From positions 1-23,425 of IMG/VR virus record IMGVR_UViG_3300028556_000038: DNA of 23,425 nt. One strand, written 5' to 3'. This DNA is from a virus. Within the stretch, counting starts at the first letter, position 1. Each line of letters begins with the position of its first letter. This document shows, in pieces, positions 3,497 through 10,238 of the stretch. Under the pieces are notes generated by a model. The model searched no databases. It saw nothing but the letters and a program-made list of their open reading frames with translations, and was not told the origin of the DNA. The position numbers and the translations under genes are program-made.

Positions 3497-3698
3497 CGTG
3501 TTTAACTTCATGAGCCGGGTAGTGACGCTTCTCGGCTTCATGTTCGCTGCAATACATGGAACCTTGGTTTGCCATGTAGCAACAGCCTGGACAGCGGCAA
3601 TTGCTGTGTAACATGCGATTCGATTTCTCGCGGTCTTCGGTCATTGATCGGGAGCGTGGTTCGCCGCGATCATGCATGGTACGTGCTGCTGGTTTCAT
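3420..3698 (-). CDS. Cys/His-rich hypothetical protein, 92 aa
   Basis: The frame starts at 3698 with an ATGA overlap to the upstream gene, which supports it. It is basic at the N-terminus and carries a Cys/His cluster NCRCPGCCYMANQGSMYCSE followed by HEAEKRH, able to bind one zinc ion. The tail is Tyr/Pro-rich. Function unknown; it is the most promoter-distal gene of the lysozyme/replication operon. Its 3' end overlaps the convergent plus-strand gene. Confidence 0.5.
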   Translation of the reverse strand: MKPAARTMHDRGEPRSRSMTEDREKSNRMLHSNCRCPGCCYMANQGSMYCSEHEAEKRHYPAHEVKHVTQYVSTYPKYPTGVGQPEGRSGKI

Positions 3699-3949
3699 GA
3701 TCCGTACCTCGTTTGGCGATGAACGTTAGTCTTGGTACGGTTTGGCACGGTCTTAAAAACTTCACCAATAGCGGGTACTTTCTTGTGTTCCTGGGCCTTG
3801 TCATTAGGCGTTGGATTACGAGGTTGGTGAGCGGGTTTAGGTCCGCCTGTCATCTGGTAGGGGGCGAGATCGAGGCCGTAAGTGCGCCCTGGCGTACGTA
3901 TTTCACCGGCTGAGACTGACAAATTTTTCGTAATCTTATTGCCCATCAT
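3695..3949 (-). CDS. Hypothetical basic, Pro-rich protein, 84 aa
   Basis: The product is 84 residues, rich in Pro, Thr, Arg and Lys and poor in hydrophobics, so probably mostly disordered (MMGNKITKNLSVSAGEIRTP, then GGPKPAHQPRNPTPND). The start lies two bases after the previous stop and the stop overlaps the next start as ATGA. No motif recognised. Its position next to the lysozyme fits a late gene. Confidence 0.5.
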   Translation of the reverse strand: MMGNKITKNLSVSAGEIRTPGRTYGLDLAPYQMTGGPKPAHQPRNPTPNDKAQEHKKVPAIGEVFKTVPNRTKTNVHRQTRYGS

Positions 3950-3951
3950 GG

Positions 3952-4158
3952 TTAAGAACCCCTATCGACGTAGATTGGATTGGCCATCATATTTTTGACT
4001 TTGCGCATAGTGGCACCGTGTGATTTCTTGATGCCTGCGAGGATCTTGGGTTGTTCTTCGCGATGGATCTTGAGTTCCGCCTCCGTAGGCTGACGATGCG
4101 TTTTGGCACCGCTGCTAGCGAGTGTGGTTGCGGGGATCTGTTTAGGTAAATCGGCCAT
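3952..4158 (-). CDS. Hypothetical small basic protein, 68 aa
   Basis: GGAGGACAAAC precedes the ATG, a strong ribosome site. The 68-residue product (MADLPKQIPATTLASSGAKT, then PTEAELKIHREEQPK) ends in a basic helix with MRKVKNMMANPIY. It resembles small phage structural or chaperone-like proteins only in size and charge. No family recognised. It lies directly downstream of the lysozyme with a 37-base gap. Confidence 0.5.
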   Translation of the reverse strand: MADLPKQIPATTLASSGAKTHRQPTEAELKIHREEQPKILAGIKKSHGATMRKVKNMMANPIYVDRGS

Positions 4159-4195
4159 GTTTGTCCTCCAAGGTAATTAACTTTAGCGCATTTTT

Positions 4196-4630
4196 TTACA
4201 GATTGCCAGTCTCCATAATCATGGCAAGGTGTTCGGCGCGTTTGCCGACCTCTTTGGCCCAGAGGCTAGAACGCATCTCTTCCGCTGCCCTGTGGTAATC
4301 CTTAGCTTGGATAGCCGCAATCATGGCTTTGAAACCTAAAAAGGATTGAATGCCCACGTTAAACGTCATGTCAATCAAGGCAAGCTTGCGGGCATTGTCG
4401 AGGTCGCGATAAAACGGACACAGACGCCACAAATCGTTCTCACATCGAACGATATCGTTATCCAGCAAGTACATGGCCTCCCCGACCGTTAAGCCCGTGG
4501 TAACGAGATTTCGGCCTATCCCCACCGTCAATACGCCTTGGGTATCGGCATAGACAAATTGGCGATAACCTTCCTCGTCCATGAGTTGAGTTTTGAGCTT
4601 GTTGCGTATTTCAGGGGGTATGCGGAGCAT
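4196..4630 (-). CDS. Endolysin, T4-type lysozyme (glycoside hydrolase 24)
   Basis: This enzyme would cut the beta-1,4 bond between N-acetylmuramic acid and N-acetylglucosamine in peptidoglycan and so lyse the host. The catalytic triad of T4 lysozyme is in place: Glu20 in DEEGYR, Asp29 in YADTQG and Thr35 in LTVGIGRNL, with spacings 9 and 6 as in T4. Further family features are ALIDMTFNVG near residue 105 and a C-terminal helical lobe with SSLWAKEVGKRAEHL. At 144 residues it is a single-domain lysozyme, and no signal peptide is visible, so it should need a holin. No convincing holin or spanin is adjacent. The first 20 bases overlap the nuclease gene upstream. Confidence 0.92.
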   Translation of the reverse strand: MLRIPPEIRNKLKTQLMDEEGYRQFVYADTQGVLTVGIGRNLVTTGLTVGEAMYLLDNDIVRCENDLWRLCPFYRDLDNARKLALIDMTFNVGIQSFLGFKAMIAAIQAKDYHRAAEEMRSSLWAKEVGKRAEHLAMIMETGNL

Positions 4631-8047: not shown

Positions 8048-8277
8048 TGTTTTGCCGACACAAATGGCGTGAACAAGAGAGAACGTTCGTTCCTCCAGAT
8101 GATAGCAAATCACCGAGGGGGCCGATAAACTTGACTAATGTCATGAGCCATCCGCGTGTTGGTAAAACGCTGATAACGGTATGTTGTGTGAAGTGCCAGG
8201 AACAAAAGATTATGACGAGTGCTGGGGATTTGACCAGGAAAGAACATGGTTCGCGGATTTATAAGAGGAAGGAATGA
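8047..8277 (+). CDS. Small Cys/His protein, 76 aa
   Basis: The 76-residue product begins MFCRHKWREQERTFVPPDDS and has CCVKCQEQK near residue 46, giving a C-x-H ... C-x-x-C arrangement that could bind one zinc ion. This resembles small phage proteins that start with C-x-H-x-W and end with V-x-C-x-K-C-G-xx-K, though the Gly after the last Cys is missing here. Its last codons lie in the first copy of a 21-base repeat that also precedes the gene at 8496. Confidence 0.5.
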   Translation: MFCRHKWREQERTFVPPDDSKSPRGPINLTNVMSHPRVGKTLITVCCVKCQEQKIMTSAGDLTRKEHGSRIYKRKE

Positions 8278-8494
8278 TGTGGCATATTCCAAACTGGATA
8301 AAATATGGTCGTCAATATGGAATAGATATTCCCTATATATTGGATTTAACTGTAGGCGAATGGAATGGCATCATGTGGTGTTGGACTATTAAAATATTTG
8401 GTTTTGGTTATACACACGTATGGACAAAGAAAAAGAAGGATTGGATGACAAGCGCACAAAGACCTTTTGGATAGGATTTATAAGAGGAAGGAAT
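8255..8494 (+). repeat. 21-base direct repeat around ribosome sites (8255-8275 and 8474-8494)
   Basis: GGATTTATAAGAGGAAGGAA plus T is repeated exactly, 219 bases apart. Each copy places GAGGAAGG just before an ATG (8274 and 8496). In the first copy it also encodes the end of the upstream protein; in the second it is mostly untranslated. It looks like a duplicated translation start cassette or recombination seam. Confidence 0.8.
8274..8474 (+). CDS. Trp-rich hypothetical protein, 66 aa
   Basis: The product has seven Trp in 66 residues (MMWHIPNWIKYGRQYGIDIP, then GEWNGIMWCWTIKIFGFGYT). The middle is hydrophobic with few charges and could be a membrane-associated segment, but it is short for a true span. 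GAGGAAGG is only a few bases before the ATG. The gene is framed by the two copies of the 21-base repeat, so it may be an inserted cassette. No family recognised. Confidence 0.5.
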   Translation: MMWHIPNWIKYGRQYGIDIPYILDLTVGEWNGIMWCWTIKIFGFGYTHVWTKKKKDWMTSAQRPFG

Positions 8495-8495
8495 A

Positions 8496-8759
8496 ATGGC
8501 TAAATATAGGAAAAAACCTATAGTAATTGAAGCGCATCAACTAACTAAATATAGCTTGCTGGAAATATGCAGATGGATGAATAGTAAATGCGATTGGATT
8601 GATAATGGTGAAAGCATTGAACTCACTATTCCAACATTAGAGGGCAACATGACAGCCAATGTTGGCGACTATATCATAAAAGGTATTAAAGGCGAATTTT
8701 ATCCGTGTAAGCCAGATATATTTGAGGCTTCATACGATGAAGTAATTAATGAAGATTAA
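8496..8759 (+). CDS. Phage protein with C-terminal GEFYPCKPDIFEA motif, 87 aa
   Basis: I recognise this as a very common small phage protein: the start MAKYRKKPIVIEAHQLT, the middle IPTLEGNMTANVGDYIIKGI, and the end KGEFYPCKPDIFEASYDEVI. The pattern TLEG-x-M-xx-xx-GD-[YW]-I-I-x-G-[IV]-x-GE-[FY]-YPCKPDIF is highly conserved across unrelated phages of Gram-negative and Gram-positive hosts. Its function is not known. GAGGAAGG precedes the start. Its TAA ends one base before the first helix of the RNA-module string, so both may share one transcript. Confidence 0.8.
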   Translation: MAKYRKKPIVIEAHQLTKYSLLEICRWMNSKCDWIDNGESIELTIPTLEGNMTANVGDYIIKGIKGEFYPCKPDIFEASYDEVINED

Positions 8760-8760
8760 T

Positions 8761-8818
8761 GGCACCCCAAACGTTTTGAATGAGCGTGTTTGCTGACGAT
8801 GAGTAGACATGGGGTGCC
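8761..8818 (+). ncRNA. RNA module 1 (58 nt)
   Basis: GGCACCCC (8761-8768) pairs perfectly with GGGGTGCC (8811-8818). Inside, CAAAC (8768-8772) could pair with a downstream GTTTG in competition with the last closing pair. It is the first block of the string and starts one base after a stop codon. The linker after it (AAGGTTAGC) is diverged. Confidence 0.55.
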
Positions 8819-8826
8819 AAGGTTAG

Positions 8827-8922
8827 CGGGGAATAGCTTAAGGCTGGGATAACCTAGGATAATACAGTAGAGCGGTGGGCTTTAAATCCACATAAGTGCA
8901 GGTGAAATTCCTGCTTCCCCAG
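8827..8922 (+). tRNA. RNA module 2: tRNA-like cloverleaf with enlarged D-loop and UUA anticodon loop
   Basis: The parts of a tRNA occur in order: acceptor GGGGAA (8828-8833) with TTCCCC (8915-8920); T8 A9; D-stem GCTT (8836-8839) with GAGC (8870-8873); anticodon stem GTGGG (8875-8879) with TCCAC (8887-8891); loop CTTTAAA, reading TTA at 8882-8884; T-stem GCAGG (8898-8902) with CCTGC (8910-8914) and a 7-base loop TGAAATT. Conserved positions U8, A14, G18-G19, A21, G26, U33, A37, G53, U54, A58 and C61 are present. Departures are a 30-base D-loop holding its own hairpin CTGGG-ATAA-CCTAG, a 6-pair acceptor flanked by a C-A mismatch, T-loop positions 55-56 as GA instead of UC, and no encoded CCA. 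By the anticodon rule UUA would read UAA stop codons. It may be a suppressor tRNA or only a tRNA mimic. Confidence 0.5.
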
Positions 8923-8928
8923 AATTAT

Positions 8929-9060
8929 GGCAATCGCGGCGTAGAGCCACGCACAGCCCCACTTGCTTCGCATTGACAGGCCGAAACTGGACACCTGATG
9001 TTGGGGAGTGTTGGAAACAACATGACTAGAAAGCCGCCAGTGCAATTCTGGCCGATTGCC
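8929..9060 (+). ncRNA. RNA module 3 (132 nt, family A, T-arm-like end)
   Basis: GGCAATCG (8929-8936) pairs with CGATTGCC (9053-9060). A hairpin GCGT-AGAGCC-ACGC follows the 5' strand where a D-arm would be. A 5-pair, 7-base-loop hairpin GCCAG-TGCAATT-CTGGC (9036-9052) sits directly against the 3' strand, exactly as a T-arm does. The centre can form TGTTG-GAAA-CAACA, a GNRA-capped hairpin. No anticodon arm is evident. Both ends are shared with module 12, while the centre is not. Confidence 0.65.
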
Positions 9061-9070
9061 AAAGAAAAAT

Positions 9071-9161
9071 GCCGGTTCGACTCCGGCTCGGTGGCTGAGG
9101 TTCGGTAACGAAGGGAGTACAGTTCGATTCTGTAGAGTGGTCTCCGGTGAGACAAAGAGCC
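9071..9161 (+). ncRNA. RNA module 4 (two canonical T-arm-like hairpins)
   Basis: Two hairpins match tRNA T-arms, including the TTCRANY loop: GCCGG-TTCGACT-CCGGC (9071-9087) and TACAG-TTCGATT-CTGTA (9118-9134). Others are TTCG-GTAA-CGAA, like a tRNA-Ser variable arm, and GTCTC-CGGT-GAGAC (9140-9153). GGCTC (9085-9089) can close with GAGCC (9157-9161), excluding the first hairpin. No complementary acceptor strand for either T-arm is found nearby, so these are not complete tRNAs. Confidence 0.55.
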
Positions 9162-9170
9162 AAAGAATAT

Positions 9171-9276
9171 GGGGTACGCCAGTAGGCAACGATAGGCTGA
9201 ACCTAGATTGATAGAGTTGCACCATAAATTCAGACGCCAGGTGTCTATCAATGCAATGGGTGGCAAGTCGTGCCCC
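9171..9276 (+). ncRNA. RNA module 5 (106 nt, long inner stem)
   Basis: GGGGTACG (9171-9178) pairs with CGTGCCCC (9269-9276), with one U-G. Inside is a perfect 9-pair stem ATTGATAGA (9207-9215) with TCTATCAAT (9244-9252). GCAAC (9186-9190) could pair with GTTGC (9216-9220) in its loop, forming a pseudoknot. A small hairpin TAGG-CTGAA-CCTA lies between. Confidence 0.65.
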
Positions 9277-9286
9277 ACCAGTTATG

Positions 9287-9368
9287 GGATAGCCCTGGCG
9301 CAACCAACCCAGATAATGAGAAATTATTAACGCTGGGCGGAGCAGTCGGTGAAACTGTAGGGCTATCC
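9287..9368 (+). ncRNA. RNA module 6 (82 nt, T-arm-like end)
   Basis: GGATAGCCC (9287-9295) pairs perfectly with GGGCTATCC (9360-9368). Inside are CCCAG (9308-9312) with CTGGG (9333-9337), stacked on ATAAT (9313-9317) with ATTAT (9323-9327). One base before the 3' strand is GCAGT-CGGTGAA-ACTGT (9342-9358), again 5 pairs and a 7-base loop. Exact linker follows. Confidence 0.7.
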
Positions 9369-9378
9369 AAAGAATTAT

Positions 9379-9472
9379 GGGAAATCAAGCGACCTGAGAA
9401 AGGCGTTCTCAATGAAGGCAAAGTCTCCTTGTAGGCGTTGAACACACTTCATAAAGCCGAACTTGATTTCCC
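9379..9472 (+). ncRNA. RNA module 7 (94 nt, 11-pair closing helix)
   Basis: GGGAAATCAAG (9379-9389) pairs perfectly over 11 positions with CTTGATTTCCC (9462-9472), the longest closing helix of the string. Inside lie TGAGAA-AGGCG-TTCTCA (9395-9411) and ATGAAG (9412-9417) with CTTCAT (9447-9452). A GGC in the latter loop could reach GCC near 9456. Exact linkers on both sides. Confidence 0.72.
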
Positions 9473-9482
9473 AAAGAATTAT

Positions 9483-9612
9483 GGCAATCGAGGCCCTAAG
9501 CCTGGGACGTTAATTCTCGTTGACCCGTGAGAATGAATGAGACAACGGGTTCAAAATGGTAGACGGTGCCAAAAAGCCGCTCACTAGCCCGTAGGAACCG
9601 GGTCCGGTTGCC
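9483..9612 (+). ncRNA. RNA module 8 (130 nt, family A, H-type pseudoknot)
   Basis: GGCAATCG (9483-9490) pairs with CGGTTGCC (9605-9612), one U-G. The next hairpin is AGGC-CCTAA-GCCT. ATTCTC (9513-9518) pairs with GAGAAT (9529-9534), and its loop ACCCGT (9523-9528) pairs with ACGGGT (9545-9550), a textbook H-type pseudoknot with 4- and 10-base connecting loops. GCCCG-TAGGAAC-CGGGT (9587-9603) lies one base before the 3' strand, as a T-arm would. Confidence 0.7.
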
Positions 9613-9622
9613 AAAGAATTAT

Positions 9623-9683
9623 GGCCGACGATACTATGCAATGAGCCGCCAATACCAGGACAGCTCGCATGGGAAAATAGGCC
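9623..9683 (+). ncRNA. RNA module 9 (61 nt, family B)
   Basis: GGCC closes with GGCC (9680-9683). The 5' end GGCCGACGATAC and 3' end GGGAAAATAGGCC are identical to module 11 and nearly identical to module 13, so the unpaired bases next to the helix are conserved. The centre forms ATGC/GCAT and GAGC/GCTC with a bulge between. Confidence 0.6.
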
Positions 9684-9696
9684 AAAGAACCCCGAC

Positions 9697-9811
9697 TGCT
9701 CATAGGTGGCTCGACGGTTATAGGTAACAAGTAAGACTGCGAAGATGGATTGTCGACATGAAATCTTTGATTACGAAAGTTACTACCGCTTTAAATATCG
9801 AGAATAGAGCA
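9697..9811 (+). ncRNA. RNA module 10 (115 nt, long nested arm)
   Basis: TGCTC (9697-9701) can close with GAGCA (9807-9811). Within it five nested helices follow in order: CTCGA (9710) with TCGAG (9798), CGGT (9715) with ACCG (9785), GTAAC (9724) with GTTAC (9779), GTAA (9731) with TTAC (9771), AAGAT (9742) with ATCTT (9763). The apical loop holds GTCGAC, which is self-complementary and could also pair with TCGAC at 9711. The linker on its right is a single base. Confidence 0.6.
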
Positions 9812-9812
9812 T

Positions 9813-9861
9813 GGCCGACGATACTTACAACGCGAGAGAGTCGCTGTAGGGAAAATAGGCC
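9813..9861 (+). ncRNA. RNA module 11 (49 nt, family B)
   Basis: The shortest block. It has the same conserved ends as module 9 (GGCCGACGATAC and GGGAAAATAGGCC) around a different hairpin: TACA with TGTA and GCGA-GAGAG-TCGC, joined by a 2-base bulge. The fold is kept while the paired sequence changes, which argues for selection on structure. Exact linker follows. Confidence 0.65.
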
Positions 9862-9871
9862 AAAGAATTAT

Positions 9872-10016
9872 GGCAATCGCGGCGCGGACAGTGACGCGCG
9901 GGATGACTCTTAGCCATGTCGTGGGCTCCGAGTTAATCGTTGACTGAAAGTGAATTAACACATATGTCAATGAAACAGGTAGCAGATATGAGCCAGTGCA
10001 ATTCTGGCCGATTGCC
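9872..10016 (+). ncRNA. RNA module 12 (145 nt, family A, pseudoknot and T-arm-like end)
   Basis: GGCAATCG (9872-9879) pairs with CGATTGCC (10009-10016). Its first 13 and last 25 bases equal those of module 3, including the T-arm-like GCCAG-TGCAATT-CTGGC (9992-10008), but the middle differs. A D-arm-like hairpin GCGCG-GACAGTGA-CGCGC follows the 5' strand. GTTAAT (9932-9937) pairs with ATTAAC (9954-9959), and GTTGAC in its loop (9939-9944) pairs with GTCAAT (9966-9971), a second pseudoknot candidate. Confidence 0.7.
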
Positions 10017-10025
10017 AAGATTAAT

Positions 10026-10120
10026 GGCCGACGATATTCAGGCGACCAGGAAACATAAAAAGGTCTTAATGACTCCTAAAAAGCTACAAGTAAGCTCCAA
10101 GTAGTTGAAGAAAATAGGCC
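10026..10120 (+). ncRNA. RNA module 13 (95 nt, family B, expanded)
   Basis: It keeps the family B ends (GGCCGACGATA and GAAAATAGGCC) but holds a larger centre with TTCA/TGAA, GACC-14 bases-GGTC and AGCT-ACAAGTA-AGCT hairpins. Flanked by near-exact linkers on both sides. Confidence 0.6.
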
Positions 10121-10129
10121 AAGAATTAT

Positions 10130-10238
10130 GGTTGCCGAGATCGCCGGTTAATAGATCGTGCCACCTAGCGTAATTTTGTCCTCCTATATGGCGCGCTTAA
10201 ATTAGGAGGCACTCCGCTAGTGTAGGATGTAGGCAGCC
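10130..10238 (+). ncRNA. RNA module 14 (109 nt), last of the string, with alternative pairing
   Basis: GGTTGCC (10130-10136) pairs with GGCAGCC (10232-10238), one U-G. Nested inside are CTAGCG (10165-10170) with CGCTAG (10215-10220) and CCTCCTA (10180-10186) with TAGGAGG (10203-10209). A competing helix, GGAGGC (10205-10210) with GCCTCC (10236-10241), would break both the inner and the closing stem. It ends about 20 bases before the next ATG, so it could also act as a leader element. Confidence 0.6.

Follow-up and report, generated by a model that had tools for sequence, protein, structure and literature searches.

GOLLD and ROOL are phage RNAs of unknown function that often lie near transfer RNA (tRNA) islands (PMC12286853). 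Here we compare these and other described RNAs with a gene-free stretch of the virus record IMGVR_UViG_3300028556_000038 (IMG/VR), whose 23,425 bases were analysed as a whole and are called the window below. The stretch occupies positions 8760-10238 of the window on the plus strand, and we read it, with a probability of roughly 80%, as a polycistronic array, with about 14 small structured RNAs that are separate from one another, and not as one large RNA. The phage tRNA-island habitat is common to the array and to GOLLD and ROOL, but those are single large RNAs whereas the array consists of separate modules. At the gathering threshold, Rfam 15 gave no match in the array, and ARAGORN found no tRNA in the window, in line with the initial annotation of this DNA, which could assign no named family. 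A relaxed Rfam 15 search yielded three sub-threshold matches, two of them to tRNA models and the best at 18 bits against a cut-off of 29; the covariance models for GOLLD, ROOL and other Rfam RNAs otherwise gave no array match, even at the relaxed threshold. We found no description of such RNAs in the open-access literature.

The nearest known kind is the pair rnaC and rnaD of phage T4, which the record annotation places at the end of a tRNA cluster as small stable RNAs, like the array modules. To our knowledge, neither has a known role. The predicted fold of T4 rnaC has an acceptor-like stem, an insert and a T-arm, as in the module family that we call C. T4 has two such RNAs; the window has about 14, some of them in recurring families, and no tRNA that can be recognised. 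A home-made model of family C (R1) found no match in the T4 stretch, a comparison made with R1 alone, and T4 rnaC and rnaD are ruled out by this search as members of family C. The array is best read as comparable to T4 rnaC and rnaD but larger, with swappable cargo. Canonical phage tRNA arrays are like it in linkers, strand and part of their CCA ends, and tRNAs are interspersed in related loci; unlike such arrays, the window has no ARAGORN call and the C modules have no recognisable anticodon arm. YrlA is a bacterial Y RNA with a tRNA-like module. It is similar in placing a tRNA-like frame on a non-tRNA RNA and different in that the array matches no Rfam family at threshold, in a general Rfam search that was not checked for a YrlA model.

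Two recurring module families

Members of family C combine an 8-base-pair (bp) stem resembling an acceptor with the constant hairpin GCGYG-GACAGUGA-CRCGC; a cargo that varies comes next, and then a T-arm of 5 bp whose loop reads UGCAAUU. In the predicted fold the acceptor lies on the T-arm as in tRNA, with 8 + 5 bp directly adjacent; the tRNA-like ends proposed in the initial annotation are supported. No anticodon arm is present in the C or A consensus, and the only clear anticodon-like hairpin in the window is that of module 2. Exact-match scans of IMG/VR for three elements (T-arm, 5′ end, hairpin) yielded 74 distinct instances of the whole C architecture, nearly all on different phage contigs, which are mostly fragments. 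The distance from the hairpin to the 5′ stem is identical in 82 of 84 cases, five distances having been permitted. In an alignment of 29 C sequences, 99.6% of cells pair, both sides change at 16 of the 18 pairs, and the covariation score is 0.606 as against 0.173 in shuffles. Because these 29 sequences were picked partly by pairing, the test was rerun on sequences gathered by nothing but the hairpin sequence and the T-loop. In this unselected set at least 7 of the 8 acceptor positions are paired in 52/56 sequences (mean 7.6 pairs, versus 4.3 when shuffled, with a shuffled maximum of 5.0), and the T-stem is perfect in 54/56. The interiors of C modules are highly divergent, and total length ranges from 80 to 307 nucleotides (nt). 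The same interior nevertheless recurs across phages, being common to the window and L110 (91%), to L005 and L164, and to L054, L074, L083 and L098, where we read a possible H-type pseudoknot by eye. As judged from sequence, the C modules are members of an undescribed RNA family that is absent from Rfam 15.

The A modules are hairpins in which a 7x7 internal loop is conserved; they share the sequence GGCC-GACGAUA...GAAAAUA-GGCC, and a gapped scan placed family A on 32 contigs. Its inner helix covaries (0.528 versus 0.146 in shuffles), so that the covariation in homologues looked for after the initial annotation is present in both families. Without selection for pairing the A result is weaker than that for C, with a mean of 2.5 of 4 inner-helix pairs versus 1.6 when shuffled and at least three of the four pairs in 17/33. 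In L058 and L149, Watson-Crick pairs are substituted for parts of the internal loop, which agrees with the proposed register. An encoded NCCA stands directly 3′ of the A module in 21/33. Family A is narrower than C, since it is present in 3/50 C-bearing records and its descriptor found 0/35 among records without C.

Layout of the array

The record carries genes for replication-initiation proteins, a Sak4-like annealing protein, terminase and tail. As the initial annotation had it, the array directly follows plus-strand genes, which reach 8759, and ends just before the next gene: it begins at the stop codon of the open reading frame (ORF) 8496-8759, and its 3′ end lies about 20 nt ahead of the next plus-strand gene (ORF 10258). 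There is no plus-strand ORF of at least 60 amino acids across 8760-10238, and the antisense ORFs have no PHROG match. A 25-nt sequence at gene starts upstream (8255-8279 and 8474-8498) is repeated at 96% identity.

Reading of the sequence, inverted repeats and folding bear out the division into about 14 consecutive self-closed blocks, most of them closed by TGG...CCA and separated by short A/U-rich linkers (AAGAATTA, AGATTAA or AGAATTA). As a refinement, the modules are not all alike: two are C-type, three are A-type (9622-9684, 9812-9862 and 10025-10121) and the remainder are different. The two C copies lie at 9871-10017 and, in variant form, at 8928-9061, and both have GGCAATCGCGGCG...GCCAGTGCAATTCTGGCCGATTGCC. 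The modules are listed below, where E-values from R1 and from R2, the home-made model of family A, are rough.

8760..8819, plus strand: module 1, a 60-nt hairpin with a 10-bp closing stem TGGCACCCCA/TGGGGTGCCA (inverted repeat and fold; no homologue found)
8828..8921, plus strand: module 2, a divergent tRNA-Gln-like RNA with an expanded D domain (homologues; sub-threshold Rfam tRNA match, 18 bits)
8928..9061, plus strand: module 3, a C-family RNA with the variant D-like hairpin GCGT-AGAGCC-ACGC (R1, 47.2 bits, E 3.4e-12)
9070..9162, plus strand: module 4, a B-type RNA with two T-loop hairpins (TTCGACT, TTCGATT) and a GTCTC/GAGAC hairpin (homologues)
9170..9280, plus strand: module 5, an 8-bp closing stem GGGGTACG/CGTGCCCC followed by ACCA (sequence; no homologue found)
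9285..9369, plus strand: module 6, a 9-bp stem GGATAGCCC/GGGCTATCC with a T-arm-like hairpin (sequence and fold; no homologue found)
9378..9473, plus strand: module 7, a perfect 12-bp closing stem TGGGAAATCAAG/CTTGATTTCCCA (inverted repeat and fold; no clear homologue)
9482..9613, plus strand: module 8, a closed RNA with an 8-bp stem including one G-U, possibly a diverged C-type; membership of family C is not established because R1 gives 8.5 bits, E 0.9
9622..9684, plus strand: module 9, an A-family RNA (R2, 57.6 bits; 91% to L128)
9690..9811, plus strand: module 10, a conserved frame with an exchanged interior (comparison with L035 and L142)
9812..9862, plus strand: module 11, an A-family RNA (R2, 54.4 bits)
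9871..10017, plus strand: module 12, a canonical C-family RNA (R1, 82.9 bits, E 1e-22, its own sequence being part of the R1 alignment)
10025..10121, plus strand: module 13, an A-family RNA with a long cargo (R2, 35.3 bits)
10129..10238, plus strand: module 14, a closed RNA with GGTTGCC/GGCAGCC (fold; no convincing homologue)

Module 2 has the acceptor GGGGAA/TTCCCC, the T-arm GCAGG-TGAAATT-CCTGC and the anticodon-like loop CUUUAAA. The triplet UUA in this loop would read the stop codon UAA, and the homologues in L152 (77% over 88 nt) and L039 have UUG (Gln); a further homologue is in L043 (74%). Module 10 shares its first 37 and last 31 nt exactly with L035 5784-5865 around a different interior, and its core is also in L142. 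Module 12 is 91% identical over 130 nt to L110/L168. Pattern scans for the B type and for module 2 yielded few extra loci. An additional module family, GGCTYTCGATG...AGATGTAGARAGCC, occurs in L152 (~2858-2968) and L054, and its closing stem shows a compensatory change.

Homologues of array modules, which an annotation made from the letters alone could not know of, exist in part in cultured jumbo phages. Module 4 is 77% identical to L008 1837-1917 and 84% identical over 49 nt to cultured Klebsiella jumbo phages, where its relative sits in an unannotated 1.1-kb gap right after six annotated tRNAs. In Klebsiella phage LPKP23 (L177 636-1747) and its relatives this stretch after the tRNA cluster holds further RNA modules; the gap is near-identical in ten jumbo-phage records and partly common to Shewanella and Erwinia phages. 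A tRNA-like gene (L177 274-370, L181 1066-1162; Rfam tRNA 38-39 bits) is unannotated in these records, and in L177 about 24 nt replace its anticodon loop. In Erwinia phage pEa_SNUABM_10 (L180 540-2640), unannotated closed RNAs alternate with tRNAs; several of the closed RNAs end in CCA, and the linkers resemble CCACCAAACAATGG. The tRNA-Pro-like genes of L018 and L034 have an apparent anticodon-loop insertion containing GCCAGTGCAATTCTGGC, the family C T-arm-like hairpin.

C modules are associated with tRNA genes. A tRNA lies within 600 nt on the same strand in 14/73 cases and on the opposite strand in none, with about 2.8 expected by chance, and in L016 and L170 tRNA and C modules are joined by the same linkers. 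Scanning bacterial genome contigs with the C hairpin gave 11 matches, four of which (L159, L164, L166 and L167) show the C architecture in full and lie in metagenome-assembled genomes; L163 is weak, and the other inspected matches, which lack the C architecture, are possibly chance. In L166, binned as Chloroflexi, an RNA ligase gene (3523-4413) adjoins tRNA-like modules and the C locus. In a search for a host through prophages, under strict filters, the seed genome was the only one with C among 143 genomes from the order of the Legionella bin and among 199 and 201 genomes of two phyla, and A was found in 0/369 genomes of the class, without a positive control. C modules are thus rare in the sampled bacterial genomes and look like phage elements. 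Isolated phages, searched at the nucleotide level with a consensus of C plus A, gave no convincing match.

Possible processing and purpose

The array stands above chance through comparison: members of families A and C are found, with strong covariation, on dozens of phage contigs, and homologues exist for modules 2, 4 and 10. Several points weigh against our reading. An encoded NCCA follows only 7/74 C modules, position 55 of the C T-loop is usually G rather than U, and the alignments behind R1 and R2 were both selected partly by pairing. Blocks 1, 5, 6, 7, 8 and 14 had no clear homologue in the homologue search. The folding energy of the array is just mildly low (mean z -0.75 versus -0.32 elsewhere, in fixed tiles), so energy alone would not reveal it.

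No plus-strand terminator-like site was found within the array and there is no gap after the upstream genes, so co-transcription with these genes is the simplest reading and is probable. The A/U-rich linkers and acceptor-like stems may then be cut by host tRNA-maturation enzymes, a route that we consider somewhat likelier than its opposite. For RNase P, an acceptor with a T-arm is the smallest substrate needed, and linkers that are single-stranded and rich in A/U are well suited to RNase E. RNase E-type cuts would fall in the linkers and RNase P cuts where acceptor and T-arm stack, followed by 3′ trimming or CCA addition, and the products would be released as small stable RNAs. In family C the tRNA-like frame would serve processing and stability while the variable cargo would do the work. 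That the frames are conserved while the cargo can be exchanged hints at effectors, or at decoys, that act on how the host handles RNA. The purpose that we find most likely, though at well under an even chance, is host take-over or counter-defence, in which the RNAs would tie up RNA-binding or tRNA-handling proteins of the host.

Compatible with the array reading, and on the unlikely side, is the idea that the RNAs are decoys, mimicking parts of tRNAs and so titrating tRNA-acting proteins of the host, be they defence enzymes or RNA-binding proteins. The acceptor and T-arm features of C without an anticodon arm, the variable cargo and the one C locus beside an RNA ligase gene speak for decoys, but nucleases that cut anticodons would meet no anticodon here. 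Considerably less probable is that the modules are punctuation, that is, signals for RNA processing that keep adjacent phage mRNAs apart or stable, as tRNAs do in mitochondrial transcripts, with incidental cargo. Modules do often start right after a stop codon and ahead of the next gene; fourteen in a row, however, have nothing between them to punctuate, and cargo is kept between different phages, as in the shared interiors above. The large scaffold RNA listed among the roles in the initial annotation is very improbable: GOLLD and ROOL share the tRNA-island habitat (PMC12286853) but have no Rfam match here, and in other phages single modules stand alone or are combined differently, which speaks against one large RNA and leaves an array of small RNAs as the best of the listed roles, with decoys and RNA anti-CRISPRs, which would mimic a CRISPR repeat, as further candidates. 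Equally remote is decay of functionless tRNA genes, for although module 2 is like tRNA-Gln and T-arms persist, covariation with compensatory changes and sequence conservation among very different phages disfavour it.

Returning to the array of separate small RNAs, the initial observation is confirmed and its interpretation partly supported. Slightly short of an even chance, in our judgement, is the wider proposal that phages widely use an unrecognised RNA platform, in which the tRNA-like frame of family C, single or arrayed, would carry exchangeable structured cargo as trans-acting effectors against the host. Several RNA families absent from Rfam 15 would join phage biology, at least one of them widespread over phage contigs of very different sizes, and the conserved motifs are ready annotation models. 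Such families would account for stretches left unannotated within the tRNA clusters of cultured jumbo phages, and these phages, together with T4, offer systems in which to test what the non-tRNA stable RNAs of phage tRNA clusters do, a question of long standing.
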